DNA of 20,321 bases from a virus: IMG/VR virus record IMGVR_UViG_3300004448_000019, positions 1 through 20,321 of that record; one strand, given 5' to 3'. A model generated the notes under the pieces. It was not told the origin of the DNA. It did no database searches and saw nothing but the letters and a program-made list of their open reading frames with translations. Below are positions 6,258-12,315 of this stretch, in pieces. A program made the position numbers and the translations under genes. Position 1 is the stretch's first letter. Every line of letters starts with the position of its first letter.

Positions 6258-7442
6258 TTAAGAATTTACGTTTGGAACAAATCCAACATTTACAATAATT
6301 GAACGCGCAACATTAACCGGTACAAGTTCCAAAGAAACAACCAATTCTGAAGTTGAAACAACGTTCTGTTCCGGGTTTATAATTGTAGCCGACGCGCTCA
6401 ATTCGCCGTCTGCCTCCATTTGTTTTAACCCTTGATCGCAAAGCCCCTTAAACGTTGCTATCGTGTCAAGTGTCAACGTGCCGTCCGGGTTAACATACAA
6501 CGGCGAACCTAATTTTGGCAATAACAATTGGCGCGTTCTGCGGACCGCTTTGTCAATAGTTCGGTTTCTCTCGATTGTGTACAAATCATCGTTTGCGGCT
6601 GTTGCCGTGTATGAATCATTATTAAACGTCCCTGAATAGCCCACAAAATTAACTAAGAAAATGTATCCCAAACCGTCCAACGCTTCGATTTGCGCTTTCG
6701 GTGTGTTCTTTACAAAATCACCGTTCGAAAACGCCGGCTCTGCAAACTCTCCCGAGGCTGTTACCATTGGGAATTTCTCGACATAAGAAATTGACTCGTG
6801 GACCGCTGCGCGTGATACCGCACCCAATTTCGCACCCAAATCTGTTATGGATTTTAAGTCGATTCCATAAAGTGTCGCACCAAATCCGGCTCCATCTTGT
6901 CCGATTGTTACAGAAACGTTGTTCGCTGTCCCTGTCCTCAAATCCGGTAACGTTGTTAAATCTTCTCCGAAAATATCCGGTGCAAAAATAACGTTCAACG
7001 GCATGTCGTTCCCTTTTAGGATGTCCACTTGCGATTGTATCGCTGTAACCCTAATTAACATTGTCGAAGAGTCCGTTAAAGTGTCATCCAACCAAATACC
7101 TATTTGGCGAATTTCACCGTTGGCGAATGTTTGCATTGTTTCAATCTCTGCGAAATCCGGCGTTGCTCCTGGCTCGTCAAAAATACCGATGTATAATTCA
7201 CCTTTTGTTTGCTTTTCAAAAAACTCTGAAATGTGATACCAAAGCGATGAATAACTCCCCTCTTTCTCAATTCCCAGGTCCTCCGCTTGTTCTAGACTAA
7301 ACACCTTTTGAATGTTAGTCGTAGCAAACCCCGTTGGTACTGACGATCTATAAAACACCAACCCCGAAATATGGTCGTTGTTTAGTAGTGGTCCACCCAA
7401 TCCGGATTTGTTCCTATTAAATACTATACTATTTAAAGCCAT
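6258..7442 (-). CDS. Contractile tail sheath protein (DUF2586-like)
   Basis: 394 aa. The N-terminal segment (GLGGPLLNNDHISGLVFYRS) and the C-terminal domain, with a long mixed region ending in TIERNRTIDKAVRRTRQLLLPKLG, a PDGTLTLDTIATFK stretch and a terminal beta strand (SIIVNVGFVPN), fit the sheath proteins of Mu-like Bacteroidetes phages. The Arg-rich helix and closing strand are what sheaths use for inter-subunit links. It drives tail contraction. A tube gene follows three bases later, the classic sheath-tube pair. This gene, with baseplate J, shows the phage is a myovirus-type particle. Confidence 0.75.
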   Translation of the reverse strand: MALNSIVFNRNKSGLGGPLLNNDHISGLVFYRSSVPTGFATTNIQKVFSLEQAEDLGIEKEGSYSSLWYHISEFFEKQTKGELYIGIFDEPGATPDFAEIETMQTFANGEIRQIGIWLDDTLTDSSTMLIRVTAIQSQVDILKGNDMPLNVIFAPDIFGEDLTTLPDLRTGTANNVSVTIGQDGAGFGATLYGIDLKSITDLGAKLGAVSRAAVHESISYVEKFPMVTASGEFAEPAFSNGDFVKNTPKAQIEALDGLGYIFLVNFVGYSGTFNNDSYTATAANDDLYTIERNRTIDKAVRRTRQLLLPKLGSPLYVNPDGTLTLDTIATFKGLCDQGLKQMEADGELSASATIINPEQNVVSTSELVVSLELVPVNVARSIIVNVGFVPNVNS

Positions 7443-7718: not shown

Positions 7719-8609
7719 TTATGCGAAAGTGTCTTGTATTAACACCGCTACACCCTCGCCGTTTGTTCTACCTTTAGAACCTCCGGCTCTTACCATTGCG
7801 TTTACAATAGAGCCTAAGTATTCCGGATCATCGAAACGACCGTATGTCTTAGCGTTACCCTCCGCACGTCTCACAAAAGACTTATGCCACGCAATTATTG
7901 CGTCGCGGTCCGTAGTTTGCGCACTTGTTCCCGCTGCGATTTTTTGGAATGTGTTGTCGTATCTTACCGATTTTGAACGTTTGTAGACTTTAAACCCTAA
8001 AATCTCACCTACAACGCCATTCTCAACCGGAACACCTTTTTGGAAATCACTAGAGGTAAACTCCGGTAATTTTAACAAATCCGCGTACATGTTCGCCGAC
8101 GCTAAAAGGTAACGACCGTCTGCTGGGATGTCCTGCGCATCTAAAGCCGTCATTAAGTTTAAAATATCGTTGTATGTTACCGCTTTAACCGCAGCACCAC
8201 CCGCCGAACTTGGACGTGTCGCCCCTGTTGTTTTTAATGAACTTGAACCATCCGCCGGACACCAAGCCGTTCCGATTCTCTCCGCAATTGTTGTGTTTAA
8301 CATTGCGATATGGTCGCCCATAATGTCCATTCTTTTTGAATAGTTGATTACCGCCTCGTTTGCGTCCTCAACATAAATTGGTGGTGTGTTGAATTTGTGC
8401 ACTGAATAAGTCAATACGCTGTCAACTCTCGCCTCCGGAGTCAATGGCACCGTTGCGTCAACCTCAACGGTTGGTTTTGATCCACTTTGAGGGACCTCAA
8501 CAGTTCCACCGTTTACAGAATCCAATTTTGATTGCTTGTAAAACTCATTCGCCGGGAATAAGTTTTTTTGCAAGTCTTTGCTAAATACTTTTAATATTTG
8601 TTCAGCCAT
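7719..8609 (-). CDS. Major capsid protein (HK97-like fold)
   Basis: 296 aa, directly after the protease/scaffold. Typical features are a short N-terminal helix, a central helix-rich part (FNTPPIYVEDANEAVINYS, then IAERIGTAW), a spine-helix and loop segment ADGRYLLASANMYADLLKLP, then VVGEILGFKVYKRSK. The C-terminus has an Ala/Gly-rich segment. Position and pattern together give a confident call; exact processing is not visible. It starts at the ATG at 8609 with an AT-rich leader and no Shine-Dalgarno. A rho-independent terminator follows within about 30 bases, as often seen after the most highly expressed structural gene. Confidence 0.88.
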   Translation of the reverse strand: MAEQILKVFSKDLQKNLFPANEFYKQSKLDSVNGGTVEVPQSGSKPTVEVDATVPLTPEARVDSVLTYSVHKFNTPPIYVEDANEAVINYSKRMDIMGDHIAMLNTTIAERIGTAWCPADGSSSLKTTGATRPSSAGGAAVKAVTYNDILNLMTALDAQDIPADGRYLLASANMYADLLKLPEFTSSDFQKGVPVENGVVGEILGFKVYKRSKSVRYDNTFQKIAAGTSAQTTDRDAIIAWHKSFVRRAEGNAKTYGRFDDPEYLGSIVNAMVRAGGSKGRTNGEGVAVLIQDTFA

Positions 8610-8621
8610 TTTTCAATGAAA

Positions 8622-9758
8622 TTATGCTATGTAAGCGTTGAATAATTTTTCATACTTCGCGTTGTTTTCCACTTGCATTTGTGAAAGCCCCGCCGGGTCA
8701 TTTTTCGACCAATCTTCGAAAGTCCACGTTGAGTTTTCAACCGTTTCGATTGTCTTACCCGCGTCTCCTAGTTCACCCATGATCTTTGGCGCTTTCGCTC
8801 CTTTGATTGAGTCTAACAAAATCGACGTGTTTTCGATGTCTCCAATTGCTTTTGCGAGCCATTGAGATTTCGATTCCGAACTAATTTTTCCGCCTGCAAT
8901 AGCGTTATCAATTAATTCAATCGCTTTGGATTTGTTGATAGTTGCCAACTCGTTTTGCATTTGCTCAACTTGTTCGACTAACCCATCATTTTTAGATTTC
9001 AATTCGTTGTTGATTTTCTCAACGTCTGAAATCGTGTTTTGCAACCCTTGAATTGCTTCTACTGTTGAGCTTTCCGCAGCATCCGCCGACAAAGACAACA
9101 ATTCGTTCACCTGTTTCATTTTTTGAACTTTTTGTTTCCCGGAAACCGCCGGGTCGGATGTAAATTCGTTTACTATATTCATAATCTGTTCGGCGTCCAT
9201 AGATTCCGAAATCTTTGGTGTTCTCCCTGTTGTTGGGATTACCTCATCGAACAAACCATTGTTTATTGCTGTCTCAGCATTGAAAAACGTTTCCCCGCTC
9301 AACATTTCGTTGACCTCGTTTTCTCCCATTGCTGAATTTTCATTGAAAACCGTTTTAATTTGGTTATAAACCTGGTTCAAAACTCCCGCGCCAACTTGTT
9401 TTCCATCTTCGGGGCGTGGTGCGTGTGCGTGAAACAAACCGTTTGATTTTATGGTCCTTTTATCCCCCGCTTGACTGATCACGCCCGCCATTGACGCCGC
9501 AACCCCAACAACTTGCGTTTCCGTTTTCATAGGTGAACCCGCAATTGTTGAGAATATTTCCCAACCTTGAAACGTGTTCCCACCGCTTGAATTTATCGTT
9601 ACCAAAAGATTTTGCACTCCTGCATCAACTAAAGCATCATGTTCTTTTGTGAACATTTCGCCCGTTATCCCCTTTTTTGGGTCCGCATCAATTTTTCGGT
9701 TTATCCGCATAATTGCCGACGCGCCGTTATTCTCAATATTTGCTAATTCAAAATTCAT
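8622..9758 (-). CDS. Prohead protease (ClpP/S14 type) with scaffold-like C-terminus
   Basis: 378 aa. Residues about 1-180 form a ClpP-like serine protease: INSSGGNTFQGWEI near 55-68, catalytic Ser89 in GVAASMAG, likely His112 in HAHAP, and Asp171 in NNGLFDEV. The remainder is a long, charged, Gln/Glu/Lys-rich coiled coil (about 190-290) ending in a less ordered tail, as in phages that fuse the maturation protease to the capsid scaffold. It would help assemble the prohead and then trim capsid and scaffold. It sits 12 bases before the major capsid gene, its substrate partner. The ATG at 9758 is the first plausible start. Confidence 0.88.
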   Translation of the reverse strand: MNFELANIENNGASAIMRINRKIDADPKKGITGEMFTKEHDALVDAGVQNLLVTINSSGGNTFQGWEIFSTIAGSPMKTETQVVGVAASMAGVISQAGDKRTIKSNGLFHAHAPRPEDGKQVGAGVLNQVYNQIKTVFNENSAMGENEVNEMLSGETFFNAETAINNGLFDEVIPTTGRTPKISESMDAEQIMNIVNEFTSDPAVSGKQKVQKMKQVNELLSLSADAAESSTVEAIQGLQNTISDVEKINNELKSKNDGLVEQVEQMQNELATINKSKAIELIDNAIAGGKISSESKSQWLAKAIGDIENTSILLDSIKGAKAPKIMGELGDAGKTIETVENSTWTFEDWSKNDPAGLSQMQVENNAKYEKLFNAYIA

Positions 9759-9816
9759 ATAAACAATTTACGTGTTTAACTTGTTTTAGTGCCCTTTTTA
9801 AGCCATATTGAGCCAA

Positions 9817-9847
9817 CAAAATACATTAATATGGCAATTCCTACAAA
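9817..9847 (-). promoter_or_regulatory. Promoter-like match for protease/capsid operon
   Basis: On the minus strand, TTTG (9847-9844), a 20-base spacer and TATTTTG (9823-9817). This approximates the Bacteroidetes TTTG / TAnnTTTG promoter, with one base short in the second box. It would give a leader of about 50 bases to the protease ATG at 9758. It straddles the start of the plus-strand ribbon-helix-helix gene. Confidence 0.3.
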
Positions 9848-9968
9848 AACAGTCCGCGTACAACTGCGAGGACGTCGAAAAGTACAATTCGAGAACCTAC
9901 AAAAAGAAACGGAAACAACAGACGCCGAATTGCTCCGACGCATTATTGATTCCTATTTTAAAAATTAG
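9831..9968 (+). CDS. Ribbon-helix-helix (Arc-like) small DNA-binding protein
   Basis: A 45-aa ORF and the only plus-strand gene I accept. The sequence fits the fold: a beta strand TKTVRVQL, a charged helix RGRRKVQFENLQKET, a turn, then a second helix TDAELLRRIIDSYF. Such proteins dimerise through the strand and bind operators. It overlaps the fibre gene convergently by four bases (stop 9966-9968) and diverges from the protease gene with a 72-base gap. A promoter-like match for the protease/capsid operon lies across its start codon, so repression of that operon or of itself is a reasonable guess. It is shorter than classic Arc but complete. Confidence 0.65.
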   Translation: MAIPTKTVRVQLRGRRKVQFENLQKETETTDAELLRRIIDSYFKN

Positions 9969-10990
9969 TAGTCGATACAAACACTGTCAAGGTATGCTAT
10001 TGCTGCGCCTGCGTCTGCGTTAGAGTCTGCACCCATGTACAAGCCACCGTCTGTTCTTATCTCTAAATAGCCCGAAATGTTCTTCGTACTGTCTTGGGAC
10101 AAAACACACGCTATTTTGTGGTTTCTATTCAGTAAAAATCCGGTTGGTAATTGAGCAACCTTCAACACGGAACCACTCAAATCGTCAATGTATATTTCAC
10201 CTTGAAACCTAATCAATTGATTTATTGATTCTTTTCTAACAAGAACGCCTTGTCTTTGTGAGCCGGAATACGTCCCCCCACCTCCTACGCTTACCCATGA
10301 ACCTATATTTAAATCACTTTTCTTTAGTGGCTCGTATGCTTGTTGTACCGCTCCACCGATACCCAACAAATCCCAATTTGTGTTGGGGTGGTTCATGTGG
10401 TAAAGATTAATAAAACCGGAAGTTTGGTTTGATCCGCCCGGCGTTGCCCCGTTCCCATCATGGAACGCAGGAACCAAAGCAACCGCGTATTTGTCTTTTA
10501 TGCTGGAATTATAATCCCAACCGCTTGTGCCTTGCGTCATAGGCGTTAGTTTCACGCTATTAGAAACAACAACGTCGTGTGTTTGCCCGTTCCGAAAAAC
10601 TCTAGCTTCCTTTAATTCGTCGCCCTCAGTAACCGCAATGGCTGTTGGCGTTGCTGCAAAAAGACTTCGAACCTCAATTGAACCCCCTGGATAGTAACAA
10701 ACTTTTTCCCCTAATAAAACTGTGAACGGTGAAACGTCACAAGTCGTAACGCTCGACCCCGTTTGAATATTTGAGTAAACCGGTGGTGTGATAAACGCGC
10801 CCGCTTTTGTGTTGTAAAGAATGTCTGTCCCCGATACTCGACTAAACCGAAAACCGTTTTTTTCTGCGTTGTATTTCAAAGCGCCTAAACCAATAGTCTT
10901 TGCGTTCTCTTGAATTTGTGCGAGGTCTTCAATATAAATTGGTGCCCCTCCTGGTTGGGGTTGTGCTATTATTTCCTTTTCGTAATCCAT
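9965..10990 (-). CDS. Probable tail fibre / receptor-binding protein
   Basis: 341 aa, rich in Gly, Ser, Thr and Asn and predicted mostly beta, as in phage fibres. The N-terminal 30 residues (including PQPGGAPIYIEDLAQIQENA) look like an attachment segment that docks to the baseplate; PIYIEDL followed by a helix is common at the start of such proteins. Glycine runs (SVGGGGTYSG) and a C-terminal segment GADSNADAGAAIAYLD also fit. It follows the baseplate genes and is the last gene of that block. It meets the plus-strand ribbon-helix-helix gene tail to tail with a four-base overlap. No chaperone gene is visible next to it. The receptor cannot be told from sequence. Confidence 0.6.
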   Translation of the reverse strand: MDYEKEIIAQPQPGGAPIYIEDLAQIQENAKTIGLGALKYNAEKNGFRFSRVSGTDILYNTKAGAFITPPVYSNIQTGSSVTTCDVSPFTVLLGEKVCYYPGGSIEVRSLFAATPTAIAVTEGDELKEARVFRNGQTHDVVVSNSVKLTPMTQGTSGWDYNSSIKDKYAVALVPAFHDGNGATPGGSNQTSGFINLYHMNHPNTNWDLLGIGGAVQQAYEPLKKSDLNIGSWVSVGGGGTYSGSQRQGVLVRKESINQLIRFQGEIYIDDLSGSVLKVAQLPTGFLLNRNHKIACVLSQDSTKNISGYLEIRTDGGLYMGADSNADAGAAIAYLDSVCIDY

Positions 10991-10991
10991 T

Positions 10992-11498
10992 TTAATATCG
11001 TTTTATTTTGTAAGTGGTCCCGGCAATCCTAAACCGGTTTATCTCAAAGTTTATTTTTTCAATTGGTGTAACGTCGTAAACATGCCCAGGAACCCAAACC
11101 GTGAAACCCTCTATGGTTTCCAATATTGATTTTGCATCGAAATAAACCGGTTCGTTGTCTGCGCCCCCAACGTTTGATCCAAAAAAGTTTTTTAGATAAT
11201 AGTTCTCGTTCTGCGTGTGGAAATACAAAGGTTCAAAACTTTCGCTGTTATTCTCTATTGCTATTTGTGGACCCCCTAACGGGTTCAATTCTTCATTCAA
11301 TACTGATTCAAACGATAGTTTTTGAGCCGACCGCCTCGCCTCTCTTTGCAGTCTCTCAAAGTATATTAAAAAAATAGCGTTATTTAGCACGTTCATTTGC
11401 CCCACGCAAGAGCGTAAAAAAGCAACGTGTTTTTGTTCACGCTTATTCACGGGGAACAAACGCGAAACCATCAAAGAGAAGTCTATTCTAAAATTCAT
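10992..11498 (-). CDS. Baseplate-associated protein, unknown
   Basis: 168 aa, no family recognised. The N-terminus is basic (RLFPVNKREQKHVAFL), the middle is helical with many Arg/Gln, and the end is beta-rich (RFRIAGTTYKIKRY). Sitting between baseplate J and the probable fibre, it occupies the place where Mu-like phages keep a second small baseplate or fibre-connector protein (Mu gp48 position), but I see no shared motif. Translation appears coupled to baseplate J through an 11-base overlap. The ATG at 11498 is the first good start. Confidence 0.7.
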   Translation of the reverse strand: MNFRIDFSLMVSRLFPVNKREQKHVAFLRSCVGQMNVLNNAIFLIYFERLQREARRSAQKLSFESVLNEELNPLGGPQIAIENNSESFEPLYFHTQNENYYLKNFFGSNVGGADNEPVYFDAKSILETIEGFTVWVPGHVYDVTPIEKINFEINRFRIAGTTYKIKRY

Positions 11499-12315
11499 TT
11501 TTTGCCGTCATTGTGATGATTGAGTCCGTTTCGTCATACTCTAAATAGCCCGCATCTGAATTGTAAAGTCTGTCTATTACTTCGAACGACTGCCCCGATC
11601 GTTGCCCCCACATTTTCAACCCCTGTGTATCGATACCGTAAACCCCTGGCACCTGTTGAATTGCGTCAACGATTTGTTCCCTAACAACCGTACCGTTGAA
11701 ATTATCAATTGATAAATTCGCTAAGTAGTTTTTTAATGCTGTTACAATGTCCTCTTGTACCGTATCACGTAGGTACTGCCCCGAATAGATGATTTCAACG
11801 TCTATTTTGAATATGTCTGCGTCTAATGATTCCGAACGAATAACCACGCCCGCAAAGCCTATTTTGTCGATATAATCACGTAAAGCATTGATTTCGTTTT
11901 CTGTCAATTTCTCCAATGGATCCGAACCTTTAGCGACTTTTACAACAACGGCGGATTCCGTCTCGACTACTGCGCAGCGTGAAATAATACGCAACGACTC
12001 GTCGATTGTGGTGTAACCCACCGAGCCGTCCGGCTGTTCTGTGACAAACTGCCTGTTGTCTTCGTCATATTGGAACTCCAAAACACGGCGCTGTAACCAC
12101 CCCGGCGTCCCTGGTACTGCGTCCCGCGCGATTGTCTCCATAGTTTCAATTCCTATGTCCATAAACCGTTCGTGAACGTGAATTGCTGTTGCTATTACAA
12201 AAGTCCATAGCCTCCAAATAGCCGTGGCGGATGGACTATTCAATCCCCCCAATGTTGTGTCCGCTTGGATGTCCGCAATGATAGCGTTTTGAATTTCTGT
12301 TATTGATCTAGCCAT
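11488..12315 (-). CDS. Baseplate J-like protein
   Basis: A 275-aa baseplate wedge protein of contractile-tailed phages. The N-terminus has the typical helical beginning (a segment ending in IHVHERFMDI). The C-terminal half shows the gpJ pattern: a strand DADIFKIDVEIIYSG, a long helix (VQEDIVTALKNYLANL), a GTVVREQIVDAIQQVPGVYG segment and a terminal strand. It anchors the baseplate around the tail hub, which fits the sheath gene further along. The ATG at 12315 lies two bases after the previous stop. The gene ends inside the next by 11 bases. Confidence 0.75.
   Translation of the reverse strand: MARSITEIQNAIIADIQADTTLGGLNSPSATAIWRLWTFVIATAIHVHERFMDIGIETMETIARDAVPGTPGWLQRRVLEFQYDEDNRQFVTEQPDGSVGYTTIDESLRIISRCAVVETESAVVVKVAKGSDPLEKLTENEINALRDYIDKIGFAGVVIRSESLDADIFKIDVEIIYSGQYLRDTVQEDIVTALKNYLANLSIDNFNGTVVREQIVDAIQQVPGVYGIDTQGLKMWGQRSGQSFEVIDRLYNSDAGYLEYDETDSIITMTAKNEF

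Follow-up and report, generated by a model that had tools for sequence, protein, structure and literature searches.

A 45-amino-acid open reading frame that opposes the virion genes of a phage fragment is, by its retention in relatives, a real, conserved and apparently unannotated gene, and it probably acts as a switch for late virion genes. The window, that is, the whole stretch of DNA analysed, is a complete IMG/VR record of 20,321 bases and probably a fragment of a virus genome. The small protein is likely to have a ribbon-helix-helix fold, and a putative tandem operator precedes its start codon at a spacing that appears tied to the promoter of the neighbouring protease and capsid genes. 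That this arrangement controls late virion genes, whether by activating or by repressing them, we regard as probable.

In the list of open reading frames the gene occupies the plus strand, with an ATG at 9831 and a stop ending at 9968; an in-frame GTG at 9789 would extend the product to 59 amino acids. It meets a 341-amino-acid minus-strand gene (9965-10990) tail-to-tail with a 4-nt overlap and stands head-to-head with the head protease gene (8622-9758, minus strand). All window genes with a family match (protease, capsid, sheath, baseplate-J-like and small terminase) lie on the minus strand. The lone plus-strand gene of a preliminary description, convergent with one neighbour and divergent from the protease, was thus borne out in both coordinates and orientation. 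That description labelled the convergent gene 'fibre'; in Pfam and PHROG it had no family match of useful score. In the window the neck genes are separated from the head protease by three genes spanning 9965-12315, one of them baseplate-J-like (11488-12315); in lotta8-2, by contrast, the annotated genes preceding the protease are neck-type and hypothetical. When the capsid protein of the relative L020 was used as query, 22 named phage records matched at 27-34% identity, including 11 from Flavobacterium and 10 from Porphyromonas, and four capsid relatives in host genomes were titled Bacteroidales, Massilibacteroides, Hymenobacter and Mesonia. Because these capsid relatives are from Bacteroidota phages and genomes, the host was taken as Bacteroidota, which the phage group probably infects.

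Features of the window and of antisense genes at other loci
Feature	Position	Strand	Basis
Small ribbon-helix-helix-type gene	9831..9968	+	ORF; antisense conservation in relatives; dN/dS 0-0.14 in 14 pairs
Head maturation protease, divergent neighbour, presumed target	8622..9758	-	PHROG 2976 E 2.7e-31; Pfam CLP_protease E 7.5e-15
Major capsid protein, next gene after protease	7719..8609	-	PHROG 267 E 5.7e-28
Sheath gene	6258-7442	-	Family match
Convergent 341-aa gene, 'fibre' in the preliminary description	9965..10990	-	ORF; relatives in same place
Putative tandem operator TTAAGCCATATTGAGCCAA	9798..9816	.	Boxes AAGCCA (9800-9805) and GAGCCA (9810-9815), 10 bp apart
-7-like box TAAATTGT, candidate protease/capsid promoter	9763..9770	-	Fits TAnnTTGY; 27 nt from operator
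HTH-like antisense gene	L050:18366-18545	-	AAAGAC boxes 11 bp apart beside gene
HTH-like antisense gene	L051:6338-6529	-	AAAGAC boxes 11 bp apart beside gene
HTH-like 58-aa gene	L137:2674-2847	-	Resembles 60-aa protein by eye; HTH_11 E 0.02
ParB_N-like 165-aa gene	L139:2286-2780	-	Antisense before protease; E 1.6e-4, 22.1 bits, cut-off 26.3

The preliminary description had named lack of conservation in related genomes, together with lack of a plus-strand transcript, as grounds for giving the gene up; as to conservation, place, strand and sequence were all found to be kept. The small frame stays antisense to and head-to-head with the protease gene in relatives down to ∼35-45% identity. A capsid-anchored scan gave 21 loci, 19 of them with a protease match (L017 begins inside the capsid gene and L019 is without a matching protease), and an antisense small frame lay beside the protease in 17 of the 19. 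The two loci without it, L004 and L005, look like one phage, a close relative of the window phage (86% in the capsid). Scanning with the small protein's own alignment gave 22 loci with the protease alongside in 20; in L031 and L041 the frame sits at a contig end. From a protease-anchored scan 80 of 106 loci were kept, and an HMM built from alignment A3 found the gene in 32 of the 77 loci scanned, always on the strand opposite the protease; the remaining three (L008, L013 and L014) carry it as well. The 45 negative loci comprised L124, which begins 9 nt before its protease match, the L004/L005 contigs (L128 and L129), and 42 loci with distant or partial protease matches. Loci overlap between the scans, so these counts are not additive. 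dN/dS was 0-0.14 in 14 of 16 pairs, many of which share a member, indicating purifying selection; the other two pairs were out of register (L006 is short of one codon) and were dropped. A spurious frame, antisense to nothing and surviving by chance, would fit the shortness of the gene and its want of a confident family match, but it is contradicted by the 32/77 and 17/19 loci and by the dN/dS values, and we give it practically no credence. In tblastn searches of named phages the window protein had one match at E 3 and the L020 protein none, and a profile scan of genome contigs with alignment A1 gave 34 pattern matches, none of which was confirmed as a relative.

Length, sequence pattern and one homologue close to a family threshold agree with the earlier designation of the protein as an Arc-like ribbon-helix-helix protein, whereas no profile exceeded its cut-off and no structure matched. 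The L011 homologue scored 23.0 bits against RHH_9 (cut-off 23.4, E 7.3e-5), in register over positions 6-46. Among the 20 members of alignment A3, RHH_9 was matched by three (E up to 1) and the unrelated family HMA_2 by ten (best E 0.015), more than RHH_9, both being weak. Across 16 records RHH_9 appeared in two, in neither over the cut-off, and it also matched 7 of 14 control genomes; RHH_1 was matched in none of the 16. In Pfam the window protein itself had no match, and its 59-amino-acid reading matched MetJ at E 0.11. The predicted monomer of the window protein has helices at 15-25 and 31-43 and no strand (pLDDT 75.4), and that of L020 has an extra helix at 2-10, where the ribbon-helix-helix strand is expected (pLDDT 75.3); monomer models are unable to show the strand pair of a dimer. 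A structure search with the two models gave no useful PDB match, which is uninformative because a protein of 45-50 amino acids would fold as a dimer. Three further hits were left unused: an adenovirus-type protein name (E 0.049) and the transcription regulator Reg576 (E 0.69) from a PDB-chain profile search with A1, and a PHROG 'transcriptional repressor', too weak at E 0.034 for the window protein and in 2 of 12 A1 members. We therefore call the protein ribbon-helix-helix-type, a weakly supported designation, rather than filing it as a proven member of the family.

The preliminary description saw the gene and missed the tandem operator that precedes it at 9798-9816. In the family this operator is 19 bp long, with consensus TTRRNCCANNNNRRNCCAA and boxes 10 bp apart, and ends 4-14 nt before the small-gene ATG. 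The window copy has zero mismatches to the family consensus and is the only window site at ≤1 mismatch. Its boxes differ at one of six letters, and a repeat search of the window did not list the two boxes by themselves, so the case for the window operator rests on relatives. A direct repeat at exactly 10 bp was strongly enriched upstream of the gene (z 11.5, reached in 0 of 300 dinucleotide shuffles), the next-best spacing being 11 bp (z 2.4); the sample was 28 loci, reduced to 20 distinct 60-nt upstream sequences and to 16 after removal of those ≥80% alike. The operators from 34 loci fell into 16 distinct sequences. In 8 of these the two boxes are identical, with five kinds represented (GGACCA, AGACCA, GGCCCA, GGGCCA and GAGCCA), so that both boxes change together. 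Twelve operators fit the consensus at 0-1 mismatch and the L007 and L036 types at two. In L036-L038 and L041 the site is instead an inverted repeat, TTGTCCCAA and TTGGGACAA separated by one base, and the protein they encode departs from the others close to its N-terminus (IKIFLKVGISG versus IKIEVKAWIHG). In a later test on contigs not used before (8 of 32 loci), all eight had the operator at ≤1 mismatch; since six are closely related to L016 and the other two to each other, they amount to about two independent cases. L004/L005 have neither the small gene nor any operator. Lone half-sites elsewhere were discounted, 53 of 66 matches in the eight records scanned being inside genes.

PMC9723704 places the Bacteroidota -7 box, TAnnTTTG, at -12 to -5 and gives TAnnTTGY as one of its promoter motifs. 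Toward the protease, a TAnnTTTG-like box begins 39-40 nt from the operator with at least 5 of 6 letters in 12 of the 16 upstream sequences, against at most 6 at any offset in 300 shuffles, and the summed -7 box score was 71, the shuffles not exceeding 51; shuffling does not remove the common descent of the 16 sequences. L010, L015 and L016 have 4 of 6 letters at 39-40 nt. The distance from operator to small-gene ATG varies from 4 to 14 nt while the spacing to the -7 box stays set, and the DNA between operator and box has diverged with its length kept. The window is an exception in spacing and box type: upstream of the small-gene start codon come the operator and then, 27 nt further, the minus-strand box TAAATTGT at 9763-9770, which has 4 of the 6 fixed letters of TAnnTTTG, the 39-40-nt position being already inside the protease gene. 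The predicted transcription start in the window is the A of the protease ATG (9758). In the eight later contigs 5 of 6 letters at 39 nt were found in only two, with at least 4 of 6 in all; in five of them (L084-L088) a better-fitting box lies at 47 nt and overlaps the presumed TTG start.

A promoter-like match reported earlier across the small-gene start codon did not recur: in a scan of 9500-10200 no sigma-70-type match spans it, and the only one (1.6 expected) lies at 9709-9736 on the minus strand, within the protease gene. TTTG was found 18-21 nt before the 39-nt position in none of the 16 upstream sequences; six records hold 12 intergenic TTTG-N18-20 promoters, including G008 2179 and G005 33989 beside early genes. 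The missing -33 element is not peculiar to these late promoters. In G004 an alternative protease promoter can be read as TTTG-N18-TACTTTTA, but its start would fall inside the gene. With the start placed from a box at -12 to -5, predicted protease leaders are 0-3 nt in all 16 cases (those of L006, L013, L020 and L032 counted as 3 nt from the ATG, disregarding an upstream TTG). A promoter for the small gene itself was sought by eye and none was found.

In some relatives a ∼50-bp gap before a baseplate gene that lies outside the window (homologue of MSRDFKLENNDL...) holds a second site, which is tandem in G003 and G005, a half-site in L007 and G008, and a degenerate copy in L017. From the end of the first box to a -7 box with at least 5 of 6 letters the distance is 27 nt in all five, with leaders of 0-1 nt; these boxes were picked by eye, and in G003, where another 5/6 box lies 1 nt from the half-site, the box at 27 nt was used. 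Since predicted leaders are so short at all 16 protease promoters and at these five, the late protease and baseplate mRNAs may be nearly leaderless. Second sites thus occur in four of the six readable regulator-bearing phages (G003, G005, L007 and G008); the contig of L017 stops short of the regulator's place and is outside the six. G004 and G006 have the small gene and neither gap nor site before the baseplate gene, and L004/L005, which lack the regulator, have no site there. Matches at G008 13160 and G004 12765 were set aside as coding, and a two-box-like match at G006 28995 was not used, being far from a start and in a repeat-rich gap. Between primase-like and VRR-NUC-like genes, G003, G004, G005, G006 and G008 (28359-28738) have repeated GTTAC/GTAAC words in what is perhaps a replication origin; in G008 this gap also contains the half-site TTGGACCAA at 28412.

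These second sites bear on the idea that the operator serves the small gene alone, the protein doing its real work elsewhere (for example at host promoters) with the late promoters as bystanders. The operator is indeed nearest to the small gene's own start, at 4-14 nt, and G004 and G006 manage without a baseplate site; the fixed distance to the -7 box of the protease operon and the sites at a distant late operon speak against it, and we consider it unlikely.

We infer that a small DNA-binding protein of predicted ribbon-helix-helix type controls late transcription. Immediately before the regulator's start codon its dimers would occupy, side by side, the two boxes spaced by one helical turn, and so limit the regulator's own synthesis. 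The same site would serve to activate the divergent protease/capsid operon, and several relatives would activate a baseplate operon as well. As a whole, this proposal of an autoregulated late-gene activator is close to evenly poised in our judgement. Between the two modes, activation is somewhat likelier than repression. Relative to the predicted starts the operator centres lie at about -61 for most protease promoters, -49 in the window and -39 at the baseplate gene. These centres are separated by nearly integral numbers of helical turns, which favours contact with RNA polymerase and thereby activation, short of proof.

The alternative, a pure repressor, would hold its own, the head and the baseplate promoters until late and then be titrated or removed. 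It would have the same anatomy as SvtR (gp08) of the virus SIRV1, the closest analogue, which the review PMC5569661 describes as a 6.6-kDa ribbon-helix-helix protein; according to this account SvtR is a repressor of its own gene, and its strongest binding is upstream of a tail-fibre gene, ∼80 nt from the core promoter of that gene. Both are very small viral regulators with a site at their own gene and, on the account of SvtR given there, another well upstream of a virion-gene promoter; here the operator, its -7 spacing and the baseplate sites in four of six phages supply that pattern at the level of sequence. In contrast, SvtR belongs to a rod-shaped archaeal virus with TATA/BRE promoters, its site differs in sequence and forms an imperfect inverted repeat, and its ribbon-helix-helix structure is solved whereas the fold of the 45-amino-acid protein is predicted; a PDB-chain search found no sequence relation between the two. 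The baseplate site is so placed (about -30 to -48) that a protein bound there could obstruct RNA polymerase. However, most protease sites, at about -52 to -70, are badly placed for blocking unless the protein spreads on DNA, and simple blocking does not need a fixed spacing, leaving repression the less probable reading of the two. For a ribbon-helix-helix protein that both activates and represses there is a precedent in AmrZ of Pseudomonas aeruginosa; AmrZ is a chromosomal bacterial regulator and is likened here by function, not sequence.

The preliminary description had left a choice between a late-gene switch and a lysogeny-linked repressor. The former is supported by conservation of the operator, by its fixed distance from the -7 box in relatives and by the second sites that some of them have at another late operon; for control of lysogeny, which is not supported, we found nothing. 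A small DNA-binding-type gene opposing late transcription would suit a lysogeny repressor, and arc and mnt of P22 are precedents for small DNA-binding genes in a temperate phage. Arc and Mnt are tiny ribbon-helix-helix repressors encoded among late virion genes, and they control an antirepressor, not head genes; their likeness to the 45-amino-acid protein is one of small size, predicted fold and gene placement rather than of sequence. Against this role, ten proteins from the early region of G008, a relative of 33.6 kb, matched replication families or nothing, with no integrase or repressor among them, the genome-contig scan confirmed no relative, and the putative sites are at late, not early, promoters. 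A lysogeny repressor thus seems very improbable. PMC7077304 treats the Pippivirus phages, which are more distant relatives, as lytic. Nor did inspection by eye of the window and 17 loci find a toxin gene in an operon with the small gene, as a type II antitoxin would have; in all of these the small gene is flanked by the protease on one side and a virion gene upstream on the other, with no recurring further antisense gene behind it.

The Flavobacterium phages lotta8, pippi8 and FPSV (Winoviridae) likewise have an antisense gene, of 60 amino acids, immediately preceding the head protease gene, and AAAGAC boxes spaced by 11 bp lie between the two; in lotta8-2 and FPSV-S1 a -7-like TAATATTG follows 33 nt on, ending 4-5 nt before the protease ATG. 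In these phages, however, the protein is of other sequence, HTH-like by look and without a Pfam match, a second antisense gene follows, and the boxes have another sequence and spacing. The 60-amino-acid protein was found in 11 Flavobacterium records, which include duplicates, and its gene is unannotated in FPSV-S1; the L050 and L051 genes tabulated above are from Flavobacterium phages. No repeats were found beside the 58-amino-acid gene of L137, and the gap beside the ParB_N-like gene of L139 holds a 12-bp repeat array (2829-2936). Where 20 of the 42 distant loci were viewed, no such gene was evident in 18, one of which, L162, has a small-terminase-like gene in that place. The slot proteins are unrelated (ribbon-helix-helix-type here, HTH-like in lotta, pippi, FPSV and L137, and ParB_N-like in L139), mostly accompanied by tandem boxes and, where viewed, by a putative late promoter that lies at a fixed distance and is nearly leaderless. 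This antisense position ahead of the head protease might tentatively be read as an exchangeable late-switch module of Bacteroidota phages, a lead rather than a rule.

To our knowledge, little is known of how virion genes are turned on in Bacteroidota phages. A full-text literature search, whose coverage mostly excludes subscription journals, found no paper on such a phage regulator, and regulators of 45-50 amino acids can escape annotation. The candidate regulator, operator and predicted promoters named here are open to ordinary gel shifts and reporter assays, and L004/L005 offer a natural experiment on why the switch is needed. Protein/operator pairs whose boxes vary from phage to phage are useful for asking how very small proteins choose DNA. 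If the slot is indeed an exchangeable module, swapping a pair of protein and boxes would rewire the timing of late genes.
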